This document shows positions 10,646-16,012 of a stretch of DNA of 64,000 nucleotides, piece after piece (the stretch's first letter is position 1; every line of letters begins with the position of its first letter). This stretch comes from Planctomyces sp. (GTDB lineage Bacteria > Planctomycetota > Planctomycetia > Planctomycetales > Planctomycetaceae). The translations under genes were made by a program, and so were the position numbers. The notes under the pieces are model-generated. The model ran no database searches, was not told where the DNA came from, and worked only from the letters and a program-made list of their open reading frames with translations. The stretch is from the NCBI GenBank assembly GCA_019636235.1, contig JAHBXW010000018.1, positions 1 to 64,000 on the forward strand, read 5' to 3'.

Positions 10646-11033
10646 ACGCGGCGGCCGATCCCGCGTCGCGGCTGCGAATGGTGGGCTGGTTTTGCCCTCC
10701 CAGTTTTCGCAGGCCGCCCGGTCGATCCGGCCGGACCGGCCCGCTCCCTGATGTCTTGCCGAGGTTGCCCGACTGACGTCGCTCTCCCGATGCGGGCATT
10801 TGCCCCCCGCCCGCACCGGAGCCGCGGGGGATTTCGAGACTGCTCTCCCCGGCCCGCCAGCCCGGGGTAGAATTGCCAGCCCCCACGGGACCGGTTGCGA
10901 CCGGCGCCCGTCGGCCGCGGCAGGATGGAACGGGCGGAGCAGTCGTCTGCGACGCCGACGCGGCCGGACACTCGACGGGATGCGCGACCGGACTCGCCCG
11001 CCCGCCCGCAGTTTCGCGAGGCGTACTGTGTCG
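10646..11033. other. 388-nt intergenic region
   Basis: Very GC-rich. A TAGAAT hexamer at 10868-10873 could be a -10 for the next gene, with an unusually long leader of about 160 nt. No gene or clear terminator seen. Confidence 0.4.
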
Positions 11034-12581
11034 ATGAATCGCTGGAGCCGATTCCTTCGAGGCCGTCCGCTGTCAGGCGCGGTCGCCGCGGGGCTGATTC
11101 TTGCGTCCGCCGCGCCCCTGCCCGCCGACCGGCCGTTTTTTCGTCCGGGCCGTTCGGCCGCCGCGCCGCCGGACACGGGCATCCCGGTGACGCCGGCCGT
11201 CGCGCCGCCTCCATTGACCCTGCCGCATGAAGTTCTGCGGGAAGGCCCCGCGCTGCCCACGCTTCCCGCGCCGGGCCTCGCGCCGTTCTTCGAACCCGAA
11301 AGCCTCACCAACGAAGTGCAGCGGGCCGTCTCCGCGACTGTCATCGCCCGGATCTCCGAGTCGTTCCTGAACCGCTTCATCGCCCATAACGACGTCACGG
11401 CCGGCGGCATCGCCGAATGCGTCCTCGGAGCCGACGTCCGCGGCGAACAGACGACCTCGACCGCGCTCCGCGTCGATCTCCTGCCCTCGGACAGCACGGC
11501 CCGGTTTGAAGTCATCCTGCAGGGCCAGACGCGCAGCCGCACGACGAGCAGCACCCGGCAGGCCTCCGTCGATTCCACCGGCAACCAGAAGTTCGACGTC
11601 CGCAAGCCCATCGACTTCGACGGCTGGCAGTTCATCACCCGGTCTCCCGGCGCGTTCGTCGAATCGACCCAGAAACATCACCAGGCCCGGACCCGCGCCA
11701 CGGCCGTGCCCGTCATTGGTTCGATCGCCGATTCGATCGCGCTGCTCGAAGCGAACCGCCGGCTGCCGATCGCCGAACAGGAGGGAGCCCGCCGCCTGAC
11801 GGAACGGGTGGCCCCGACGTTGAACGAATCGATCGACGAACAATTGGCGAAGGCGAACCGCGCACTGGCGGAGGCCCGCGAACGCACCGGACCGATCGGC
11901 TCAATCCTGCAGCAGGGTCTGCGCTGCCGAACGACCGATGAGGAAGTGCTGGTCGAACTGCAGGTGGGCGCGGCTCCGCCGGCGACGGCCGCGCCGCGAA
12001 TGACGAGTCACGGGGCAGCGCTGCGGATTCACGAATCGGCAATGACGGCCTGGCTGAGCGACACGGGGCTGGCCGGTCAGGAAATCGCGATCTCTGACCT
12101 CGAGAGCTGGCTGGCGACGGTGCGGGGCCGGCTGGGGTTCCGATCCGGTCCGGCTGGGGCTGCCGATCCAGACGAGGCGCCGGCGTTCGGCGCGCCGGCC
12201 GGGGCGACGCTGGTGCTGGCGAGCGAGCGCCCGCTGGCCGTCCGGTTCGACAACGACGAGTTTCAGATCGTGCTGCGGGTCGCCATCCGACCGATCGAGG
12301 GCGCGGAGCTGCCGGGGCAGCGGATCGTGATCGCCTACGCCTGCACGCATGAGGGAGAGGAGGTGCGTCTGCGGCCGTTGCCGGCCAGCGTCAGCGCCGA
12401 GGCGCCAGGGGGATTGATCAACGATGCGCTCGACACGCTGGTGCGGGATCAGATCGAGTCGCGGCTGGAGCCGGTCGTCCTGCCGGCCAGTCTTTCCGCG
12501 CCGGGCGCGCAGGGGGAGGCGCGGCTGTCGTTGGCGGGGTTGAGTCTGCGCGACGGCTGGCTGTCGCTGGATTGGGAGTGA
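11034..12581 (+). CDS. Exported protein of unknown function, possibly planctomycete-specific
   Basis: A 515-residue protein I do not recognise. It begins with a signal peptide (MNRWSRFLRGRPLSGAVAAG..., Ala-rich cleavage region near residue 30) and a Pro-rich linker, so it should act in the periplasm. The body has two similar halves of beta-rich character: residues about 85-290, including a DFDGWQFITRSPGAFVES segment, and about 320-500, including VRFDNDEFQIVLRVAIRPIE. A polar helix lies between them. No enzyme motif is seen. The open frame extends 78 codons upstream but is Arg-rich there, so I start at ATG 11034, where the leader begins. Confidence 0.65.
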   Translation: MNRWSRFLRGRPLSGAVAAGLILASAAPLPADRPFFRPGRSAAAPPDTGIPVTPAVAPPPLTLPHEVLREGPALPTLPAPGLAPFFEPESLTNEVQRAVSATVIARISESFLNRFIAHNDVTAGGIAECVLGADVRGEQTTSTALRVDLLPSDSTARFEVILQGQTRSRTTSSTRQASVDSTGNQKFDVRKPIDFDGWQFITRSPGAFVESTQKHHQARTRATAVPVIGSIADSIALLEANRRLPIAEQEGARRLTERVAPTLNESIDEQLAKANRALAEARERTGPIGSILQQGLRCRTTDEEVLVELQVGAAPPATAAPRMTSHGAALRIHESAMTAWLSDTGLAGQEIAISDLESWLATVRGRLGFRSGPAGAADPDEAPAFGAPAGATLVLASERPLAVRFDNDEFQIVLRVAIRPIEGAELPGQRIVIAYACTHEGEEVRLRPLPASVSAEAPGGLINDALDTLVRDQIESRLEPVVLPASLSAPGAQGEARLSLAGLSLRDGWLSLDWE

Positions 12582-12667: not shown

Positions 12668-12994
12668 ATGGTCGATCGACTCGAAAGGCTGGCGCGACTG
12701 ATCCCGGAGGACGTGCTGGTTGCATTCTGCGCTCGCTGGCGTGTGCGGGAGTTGTCGATCTTCGGTTCGGCGCTGCGTGAGGACTTCCGTCCGGACAGCG
12801 ACATCGACGTCCTGGTCTCGTTCGACGATGCGGCGCCCTGGAGTCTGTGGGATCTGACGACGATGCAGGACGAGCTGGGCAGCCTGCTCGGACGGCGTGT
12901 GGATCTTGTGGAGCGGGAAGGCCTGCGGAATCCGTTTCGCCGCGAGCGGATCCTGAACACGCGACAGGTGATCTATGCCGCAGGCGAAGGATGA
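12668..12994 (+). CDS. mntA: MntA-type nucleotidyltransferase antitoxin
   Basis: A 108-residue minimal nucleotidyltransferase. The catalytic signature GSALREDFRPDSDIDVLV fits the GSX10DXD pattern of MntA antitoxins, which inactivate the HEPN partner by transferring AMP to a tyrosine. The third acidic residue is probably in the RRVDLVE strand. An ATG at 12653 is also possible, but GAGG at 12659-12662 sits at a suitable distance only for ATG 12668. The next gene begins 20 nt before this one ends, so the pair is translationally coupled, as expected for type VII toxin-antitoxin modules. Base composition here resembles the neighbouring genes. Confidence 0.85.
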   Translation: MVDRLERLARLIPEDVLVAFCARWRVRELSIFGSALREDFRPDSDIDVLVSFDDAAPWSLWDLTTMQDELGSLLGRRVDLVEREGLRNPFRRERILNTRQVIYAAGEG

Positions 12995-13346
12995 CCGCGC
13001 CGCGCTGTGGGACATGCTGACGGCTGCAAGAGCCGTTGTAAGCTTGGTTGATGGCAAGACTCTCGATAACTACGTCGCAGACTTAATGCTCCGAAGCGCC
13101 GTCGAGCGTCAAGTGGAGATCATTGGGGAAGCCGCACGTCGGGTCTCTCGAGAGTTTCAAGACAAGCATCCCGAGATCCCCTGGCGACCGATCCAAGCGC
13201 AGAGGCAAGTGCTCGCCCATGAATATGGCGAAATCAAGCATGATCGCCTCTGGCGAGTCGCGACCCTTCATGTTGGCGAACTGATAGAACAGTTGCAGCG
13301 ACTCGTGCCAGAGGCCCCGGCTGACGACGTGAACCCGGCATCCTGA
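12975..13346 (+). CDS. hepT: HepT-like HEPN-domain toxin (DUF86)
   Basis: A 123-residue all-helical HEPN ribonuclease. RQVLAHEY at about residues 76-83 matches RX4HXY exactly: Arg and His are the catalytic pair and the Tyr is the AMPylation site used by MntA. The N-terminal helix (DRAALWDMLTAARAVVSLV) and IIGEAARRVS are typical of DUF86. It is less GC-rich than surrounding genes (AACTACGTCGCAGACTTAAT), which suggests acquisition. It overlaps mntA by 20 nt and shares its promoter. Function follows from the family; toxicity here is untested. Confidence 0.88.
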   Translation: MPQAKDDRAALWDMLTAARAVVSLVDGKTLDNYVADLMLRSAVERQVEIIGEAARRVSREFQDKHPEIPWRPIQAQRQVLAHEYGEIKHDRLWRVATLHVGELIEQLQRLVPEAPADDVNPAS

Positions 13347-13411
13347 ATGTTGATCGTCGCCGTCACGAGGCTGTCCGTCGCCGGCTCAGCCGACGCGGGC
13401 CGGCCGCAAGG

Positions 13412-13525
13412 GAGCCGAAATCGGTCATCGGCTACACAGTCCGCGGAGGCAACATCGTCGCCATCAACGTGCTCGCCGATCCGGAACGCGTCCGCGCTCT
13501 GAACCTTCGATTTCCGGGAACATGA
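13412..13525 (+). pseudogene. 3' stub of an ECF sigma factor (SigJ-like)
   Basis: The short frame reads EPKSVIGYTVRGGNIVAINV then LADPERVRALNLRFPGT and ends with TGA at 13523-13525. GYTVRGGxIVAIxVLADPERxRxLxL is the characteristic C-terminal SnoaL-like end of SigJ/ECF41-type sigma factors. There is no start codon and no sigma-2 or sigma-4 region upstream, where the HepT gene ends. It is therefore a leftover 3' fragment, probably cut when the toxin-antitoxin pair was inserted or by deletion. The family match is strong; the cause is inference. Confidence 0.7.
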
Positions 13526-13636: not shown

Positions 13637-15943
13637 TCACCCCTTCTGGAACGTCAATTTCGTCCCCTGCTGCAGCGGCGAGAAGTCCAGCGAGCCGTCA
13701 GACTTCAGGTTGATCTCGCTGAGCATCACGCCGCCGGAATCCGGCTGCATGACGAGATTGTTCCCCCGCACCACGTAGGCGCCGGAGACCGTCTGCGGCT
13801 GGCCGTCCTTCGAGTACGACCATTGGAACGTGCCGTCGGCGCCCAGCGTCAGTGAGAACTGGCCGCTGGCGTCCTGCGCAGTCCACGCGCCTTCCAGCTG
13901 GTCCATCGGCCAGGCCGGCGCTTTGACGCTGTCCGCCGTCTCCTGCGCAGCGGCCGGATTGGCGGCGGCCGCCGCGGCGGCGGGCGGCTCGTACATCTTG
14001 ATCAGGTCGGCCGTCAGCTGGTCCTTCGGCTGGAGTTGGGCCACGGCCTTGAGCAGCGCCAGCGCGTCCTCCTGATGCCCGGCCGTCATGTAGTGGTAGG
14101 CCAGCAGGAACCGCACATCCGCCGCCTGCGCATCGGCCTTCACCGCCGCTTCGAGCTTCCGGAGCTGTGCGGTGTACACGTCCGGCTTGTCGTACAGGCT
14201 GATGAGCGTCGTCCAGTCCATCCCCGGACCGGCGGCGAGCACCGCGTGGATCACAGCCGCCGACTCGCGAAAACGGCCCAGCGCGAACAGGCACAGGCTG
14301 CGGAACTCGTTGATCGCGGCGTCCCGCGGCGCGGCCTGCAGCGCCTGATCCGTCAGCGACAGCGCCTCGTCGAACTGCTCCTGGTGAAACGCCGCCCGCG
14401 CCTGATTGAACGTGGCCGTCAGCGGGTCCGTCGCGGCTGAAGCGTCGTCGCTCCCGGAATCGGCGGACGCGGAATCGTCCGGCGGCTGCATCGTGGAGGG
14501 ATCGCCGACGACCGGCTCGGCGTACGACACGGCCGTGCCGCCGTCGTAATAGGGGTTGTAGTACCCGCTCACGCCGAACAGCGTGTTGACGGCGCTGATG
14601 CCCCACATCGTCGCGCCGAACGCCATTGCCGCGGGATACGTGTCCCACAAGTAGTCCCAGCGGCCGTTCCCCCAGGTCGGCGCGTAGCCGTTGTACCAGC
14701 CGCCCCAGTTGCGGGACCAATGACCGGCCGGCCCCGAGTAGCCCGCCCAGCCAAACGCGCCGTTCGGGCCGATCGCACCCCCATGACCCCAGACGTTCCC
14801 GTTCGGCCCCCAGCCGATCGTGTGGCCCCAGGCCCCGTTCGGACCGACGCCGGTCGAATGTCCCCAGTGTCCGCCGTTCGGTCCCCAGGCGCCGGTGTGG
14901 CCCCAGTAGCCGTTCGGCCCCCAGAACCCCACGTGGTTGATCTCGCCCCCGTTCGGACCTTCCCATTGCTGGTGATGCCAGCCGCTGTCCCCCCAGTGAT
15001 CGTCAAAGCGGTTGGACAGATCGTTCGTGCGCTGGGGAATCGACCCCTTCTGCCCCGGCGTCCATCCCGATCCGCCCCCCGCGGCCCCGCCCCCGGGACG
15101 GGAATCGGCCCCGGGCAGTCGCGTTCCAGAACCCCCGGCTCCAGGACGGGCCGGCCCCAGCCCCGGCAGCGACGCCGTATTGCCCCCAGGTCCTCGGCCA
15201 TCCAGCCCGGGAAAATTCTCCGGCCGATGCCCGCCGATGCCTGGAGTCTGGCCCGGCAGATTCAACGAGGAACGGCCGCCGTCTCCGCCCAGGCCAAACC
15301 GTCCCGCTCCATCGCCTCCCAGACCGAAACGCCCGCCGCCATCGTCCCCGAGACCAAAGCGGCCGGCGTCGCCGCCCCCCGCCCCGAGTCCGCCGCCGGG
15401 CGTGAGATCCCCGCGCGTGATCCCGCCATCGGCACTCAATTGCGGGCGCGAGCCGATCTGCAGTCCGCCGGCTCCCTGGCCGGGCGTGTGCAGAATGTTC
15501 GGTCGCTGCGACCCGCCTCCCAGGCCGCCCCCTGGACCCAGCCCGCCGCCCCCCAATCCGCCCGGACCGAGGCGACCGCTCCCGCCCTGTCCGCCAAGTC
15601 CACCGCCACCCCGATTGCCGCCGCCCAGCCCACCGCCGCCGAGGTTTCCGCCACCCAGCCCACCGCCGCCACCGAATCCTCCGCCGCTGGGGCGCGTCAT
15701 CGCGGGAGAGGGACCCGGTCGAAACCCGCCGCCCGACAGACCTCCCCCTCCCATCCCGCCGCCGAAGCCGCCTCCGCCGCCAAATCCACCGCCGCCGAAG
15801 CCGCCCCCGCCATGGAACCCGCCGCCCCCCAGCCCGCCGCCGCCGAGGCCCCCGCCCCCAAACCCGCGCGCGAATGCCGGACCGCCCGACAGCGCGACCG
15901 TCACCAGACCCACCACTGCCGAATGCCACACGGGGCGTATCAT
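13637..15943 (-). CDS. Glycine-rich exported protein with WGPNG repeats and TPR-like domain
   Basis: A 768-residue exported protein. After a signal peptide (MIRPVWHSAVVGLVTVALSG, cleavage near AFA) come about 240 residues dominated by GGGG(L/F)GGG and G-D-G-G repeats. Next is a Trp/His-rich block with six GPNG units (FWGPNGYWGHTGAWGPNGGH and so on, about 328-400) and a segment NTLFGVSGYYNPYYDGG. A TPR-like helical domain follows (about 500-650, FDEALSLTDQALQAAPRD), then a beta-rich C-terminal domain (about 680-768, LEGAWTAQDASGQFSLTLGA). The layout suggests a surface or periplasmic scaffold, but no function is known to me. The ATG at 15943 starts the leader; it is a monocistronic minus-strand gene. 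Confidence 0.75.
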   Translation of the reverse strand: MIRPVWHSAVVGLVTVALSGGPAFARGFGGGGLGGGGLGGGGFHGGGGFGGGGFGGGGGFGGGMGGGGLSGGGFRPGPSPAMTRPSGGGFGGGGGLGGGNLGGGGLGGGNRGGGGLGGQGGSGRLGPGGLGGGGLGPGGGLGGGSQRPNILHTPGQGAGGLQIGSRPQLSADGGITRGDLTPGGGLGAGGGDAGRFGLGDDGGGRFGLGGDGAGRFGLGGDGGRSSLNLPGQTPGIGGHRPENFPGLDGRGPGGNTASLPGLGPARPGAGGSGTRLPGADSRPGGGAAGGGSGWTPGQKGSIPQRTNDLSNRFDDHWGDSGWHHQQWEGPNGGEINHVGFWGPNGYWGHTGAWGPNGGHWGHSTGVGPNGAWGHTIGWGPNGNVWGHGGAIGPNGAFGWAGYSGPAGHWSRNWGGWYNGYAPTWGNGRWDYLWDTYPAAMAFGATMWGISAVNTLFGVSGYYNPYYDGGTAVSYAEPVVGDPSTMQPPDDSASADSGSDDASAATDPLTATFNQARAAFHQEQFDEALSLTDQALQAAPRDAAINEFRSLCLFALGRFRESAAVIHAVLAAGPGMDWTTLISLYDKPDVYTAQLRKLEAAVKADAQAADVRFLLAYHYMTAGHQEDALALLKAVAQLQPKDQLTADLIKMYEPPAAAAAAANPAAAQETADSVKAPAWPMDQLEGAWTAQDASGQFSLTLGADGTFQWSYSKDGQPQTVSGAYVVRGNNLVMQPDSGGVMLSEINLKSDGSLDFSPLQQGTKLTFQKG

Positions 15944-16012
15944 GGAAGTTCCCCACCGAGACCTGAGAATGTTCAAAACCTCATCCGGCGCGCGGACCAC
16001 TGATGTCCGTCC

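Follow-up and report, generated by a model that had tools for sequence, protein, structure and literature searches.

A predicted class I HEPN/MNT (type VII) toxin-antitoxin pair adjoining the orphan 3′ end of a SigJ/ECF41-type sigma factor gene in a planctomycete

In the 64,000-nucleotide stretch of planctomycete DNA analysed here (the window), we found a chromosomal gene pair that appears, by sequence criteria, to be a class I HEPN/MNT (type VII) toxin-antitoxin system and is followed by the last codons of a sigma factor gene. We consider it quite likely that the pair represents a single-copy type VII operon, most likely acquired horizontally, and that the sigma stub is a foreign dead fragment, which either arrived with the pair or settled at the same junction. 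The find is ordinary and leaves the established picture of how such pairs work unchanged. What is added is a well-defined HEPN/MNT subclade, most frequent in Planctomycetota and present here and there in several further phyla, with a window member that scores below the NCBIfam equivalog cut-offs, as well as a foreign sigma-gene scrap seen at a toxin-antitoxin border.

The first gene, mntA (12668–12994, plus strand), encodes a 108-aa MNT-domain nucleotidyltransferase, the predicted antitoxin, which matches Pfam NTP_transf_2 at E=2e-17; the second, hepT (12975–13346, plus strand), encodes a 123-aa HEPN-domain protein, the putative RNase toxin, which matches the Pfam HepT-like family PF01934 at E=1e-20, both above the gathering scores. 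The original prediction, made from the letters of this DNA, had pointed to a 20-nt gene overlap, a GSX10DXD motif and an exact RX4HXY motif; all three were confirmed, and both motifs are exact. The end of mntA at 12994 and the start of hepT at 12975 define the overlap (12975–12994, plus strand), which is likewise 20 nt long in the closest relatives, L103 and L104. The GSX10DXD of MntA reads GSALREDFRPDSDID (12764–12808, plus strand; G33, S34, D45 and D47), with D79 as the third conserved Asp, and the RX4HXY of HepT reads RQVLAHEY (13203–13226, plus strand; R77, H82 and Y84), of which Y84 presumably accepts the AMP. The published class I HEPN/MNT criteria are neighbouring PF01909 and PF01934 genes with GSX10DXD and RX4HXY (PMC7641770); here, the PF01934 and PF01909 genes are adjacent and both motifs are present.

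The NCBIfam equivalog models, both with a curated cut-off of 60 bits, gave lower scores, which count against the proposed explanation: 47.4 bits (E=1.4e-12) for MntA against the MntA_antitoxin model NF047752, and 23.9 bits for HepT against NF047751. Type VII is not defined by these cut-offs, and the HepT model is matched at E≤0.01 by 18/18 HepTs of the subclade described below. MntA also has hits to PADLOC's candidate defence models PDC-S09, the best at E=2.1e-25, and HepT has none. The HepT-like gene in the window was the only one found in the genome.

A single-protein scan of 84,980 species genomes gathered 49 relatives of HepT, 17 of which are 51–74% identical to the window protein over the matched segment. 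The subclade including the window comprises at least 18 pairs (HepT identity 46–74%) from Planctomycetota, Nitrospirota, Armatimonadota, Sumerlaeota, Zixibacteria and Goldiibacteriota, together with one Actinomycetes bin. In all 17 subclade relatives mntA lies directly 5′ of hepT (in L110 it is cut by the contig end), and the two genes overlap by 11 or 20 nt, most often by 11 nt. R77, H82 and Y84 do not vary across the 18 rows of the HepT alignment, nor do G33, S34, D45, D47 and D79 across the 13 rows of the MntA alignment. In a tree of the joined MntA and HepT proteins, the window is sister to L103, an uncultured Planctomycetaceae bacterium (98/96); the Planctomycetota rows do not form one group, although a single origin is compatible with the starred branches. 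L103 (CAIYBH010000005.1) resembles the window in its MntA and HepT, which are 73–74% identical, and in the 20-nt overlap, but it has other neighbour genes and no sigma stub. The distribution is patchy: with a profile of the subclade, a relative was detected at E≤1e-20 in 82 of the 392 genomes of the phylum and none in the sister species G001; the pair is missing there and in most of the family.

As had been predicted, hepT is less GC-rich than its flanks (58.9%, the 0.9th percentile of the window's 372-nt stretches, i.e., the lowest ~1%), and mntA reaches 63.6%, against a window mean of 0.676 and a mean of 67.7% (minimum 64.1%) for the 28 other window ORFs. At third codon positions, the GC content is 0.64 in hepT, 0.75 in mntA and 0.68 in the sigma stub vs. 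a mean of 0.85 (minimum 0.80) in the same 28 ORFs. The low GC of hepT fits recent acquisition but falls short of demonstrating it; that the pair was acquired by transfer, and in what order the events leading to the stub took place, are what we infer. Counting against this explanation, the pairs closest to it also come from Planctomycetota, so a distant-phylum transfer is not established for the pair itself.

The structure of HepT was predicted by AlphaFold2 from the subclade alignment (pLDDT 82.5, with the motif loop, residues 80–85, poorly predicted) and compared with the PDB by Foldseek. Ranks 1–13 were all solved HepT/HEPN toxins, with the helical HEPN fold ranked first, a best TM-score of 0.67, a probability of up to 0.99 and all E-values above 0.1; a sequence profile search reached 6m6u only at E=0.77. 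This fold ranking agrees with HEPN membership of the modelled protein without proving it; stronger evidence comes from the Pfam match. With HepT/MntA of Shewanella oneidensis (SO_3166/SO_3165; PMC7641770; PDB 6m6u, 7bxo), a type VII toxin-antitoxin, the window pair shares the PF01934/PF01909 neighbourhood, RX4HXY and GSX10DXD, whereas the two HepTs are about 10–15% identical in the structural alignment, and the function of the window protein is predicted only. The HEPN-MNT structures 7ae2, 7ae6, 7ae8 and 7ae9 resemble the window pair as two-protein modules and, going by the predicted HepT structure, may share the HEPN fold (the best TM-score quoted above), at 13–17% identity to the window HepT, whose function is likewise only predicted.

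By homology with the Shewanella pair, we infer RNase activity and AMPylation for the window pair. HepT would dimerise and cleave RNA, while MntA, presumably co-translated from the overlapping gene 5′ of hepT, would hold ATP and Mg2+ in its GSX10DXD site and add AMP to Tyr84 of HepT, serially as in Shewanella HepT/MntA, thereby silencing the toxin.

Downstream of hepT, past a 68-nt junction (13347–13414, plus strand) with no recognisable coding content, there is the orphan 3′ end of a SigJ-like sigma factor gene that the original prediction had placed there (13415–13525, plus strand; 36 codons), as tblastn, profile and pairwise alignment indicated. The stub codons (13415–13522) and the TGA read PKSVIGYTVRGGNIVAINVLADPERVRALNLRFPGT, and no usable start codon precedes them. 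A tblastn search of 7.3 Gb of plasmids with the stub returned 12 plasmid records, mostly from Streptomyces, other Actinomycetota and Rhizobium, with E-values from 2e-3 (best) to 3 over the whole list. Three of the matched genes are annotated as sigma factors, unannotated matches in Nonomuraea, Nocardia and Embleya belong to ORFs of the same SigJ-type family, and one match, in Haloarcula, sits in an oxidoreductase. The matched sigma proteins fit SigJ (NF007214) and SigX4 (TIGR02957) almost from end to end and also match the solved SigJ 5xe7. A SigJ-type profile of seven actinobacterial/rhizobial proteins detected the stub at E=5.6e-8 and nothing else in the window below 0.05, while the reversed-window control gave no match below 0.4; since the stub itself had led to the sequences in this profile, the tblastn E-value is the less biased figure.

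The stub corresponds to the final 36 residues of SigJ/ECF41 proteins of Actinomycetota and Rhizobiales (NF007214; PDB 5xe7), with 13–17 identities in 29–35 columns to actinobacterial SigJ genes, but it lacks sigma-2, sigma-4 and almost the whole C-terminal extension, the part that regulates ECF41-type sigma factors (PMC3426412). Because only the end of that extension remains, the stub is a remnant and not a member of the SigJ/ECF41 family. On the Streptomyces parvus plasmid pG-2_2 (L073, around 1500), we observed a SigJ-like gene that is apparently frame-disrupted, as the frame read at its 3′ end fails to continue into the sigma domains.

Comparisons within the family bear on the source of the fragment. 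Nine SigJ proteins from Streptomyces, Nonomuraea, Nocardia, Embleya and Rhizobium were aligned pairwise with the stub; eight scored 65–92, values flattered by the choice of this set via the stub, and the ninth was the frame-disrupted one of S. parvus. All the ECF41 proteins of Planctomycetota, gathered from 40, 120 and 392 genomes, scored at most 47, and a Planctomycetota ECF41 profile gave the stub 3.0 bits (E=3). The endings differ as well: DPxR in the stub-type sigma factors of Actinomycetota and Rhizobiales vs. mostly NPDKL/NPEKL in Planctomycetota ECF41. No DPxR-type sigma factor was found in the incompletely sampled Planctomycetota, a result unaffected by the stub-based selection. Across the 392 genomes of the phylum the stub itself found only the window, in a search that is weak for 36 aa, and full-length sigma queries were used in its place. 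The genome yielded no other stub match and no full-length or intact SigJ-type gene. Since the stub is of the actinobacterial/rhizobial type, unlike the sampled Planctomycetota ECF41, it more likely formed part of acquired DNA than of a resident gene that the cassette had cut, although its shortness counts against this explanation.

The sister species G001 carries an ECF41 gene of the Planctomycetota type (L089, 8639–9412, minus strand) that keeps its sigma domains, loses homology in the C-terminal extension beyond roughly position 196 of the profile and adjoins an IS630-like transposase ORF. We rejected it as the other half of the window stub, as its sigma type differs.

Two doubts concern the identity of the features themselves. 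A fragment of 36 codons, with no curated-family match on its own and modest tblastn E-values, could resemble a sigma factor by chance, but this is very improbable: the matches inside annotated sigma genes all fall at the very C-terminal end, those in Nonomuraea, Nocardia and Embleya terminate ORFs of the same family, and one such locus gives a 75% nucleotide match over 73 nt. The pair, for its part, might be an inactive or repurposed HEPN/MNT module, e.g., a housekeeping modifier rather than a toxin-antitoxin. The low identity of the fold matches to characterised members (10–17%), the scores of both proteins below the NCBIfam cut-offs and a report that the motif of a Legionella pair is not the catalytic (RNase) site (PMC11586414) speak for such a module; we nevertheless regard it as unlikely, for the motif residues and the third Asp are all intact and subclade-invariant, both reading frames are open, and the overlap is maintained.

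The other alternatives concern the junction. When a cassette inserts into a gene, both halves of that gene stay behind. According to the original prediction, the module had inserted into, or replaced, a sigma gene; however, only 86 nt separate the stop of the upstream gene (12581) from mntA (12668), and a six-frame profile search revealed no sigma 5′ part either there or elsewhere in the window, so the claim of insertion finds no support. With no 5′ half and a stub of the wrong type, insertion into a resident sigma gene was rejected. Even in the broader form, where a resident SigJ/ECF41 gene was interrupted or for the most part replaced by the cassette and kept only its 3′ end, such an origin seems doubtful to us. 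The stub does lie 68 nt past hepT in the same orientation, and the genome keeps no intact SigJ-type gene; against this, the stub is unlike the type found in Planctomycetota, and in G001 the matching ends of both flanks lack a sigma gene. There, the left-flank homologue (at 5057 kb) is followed by a convergent moaA-like gene (named from its sequence), and the right-flank gene occurs in two paralogous copies (at 5561 kb and 910 kb), adjoining a kinase-like gene and another gene; neither the pair nor the stub is present in these stretches. With the flank homologues so far apart, G001 offers no clean empty site, and none is demonstrable because the gene order has changed too much. Another scenario, in which an unsampled donor with an HEPN/MNT module directly beside a SigJ gene supplied the pair and the SigJ-type fragment together, is also rather improbable; this linkage was seen in none of the relatives examined. 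That such pairs are repeatedly linked with sigma fragments was rejected, as the stub had no match at E<0.05 in any of the 49 related loci. The simplest reading is an acquired or assembled junction that holds the pair and a sigma scrap.

Around the pair, we found nothing notable among direct repeats, tRNAs and promoter- or terminator-like sites, and no target-site duplication or tRNA marking an insertion nearby, which also counts against the proposed explanation. The junction has weak nucleotide matches to plasmids of Gemmatirosa and Ancylobacter, which were judged to be due to chance. As to the flanking genes, the one on the right (13637–16000, minus strand) encodes a 787-aa Gly-rich protein with TPR repeats, which has two paralogues in G001, at about 5561 kb and 910 kb. 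The one on the left (11022–12581, plus strand) encodes a 519-aa protein without a Pfam match that is conserved across most of the family, 43 of 59 genomes having a relative.
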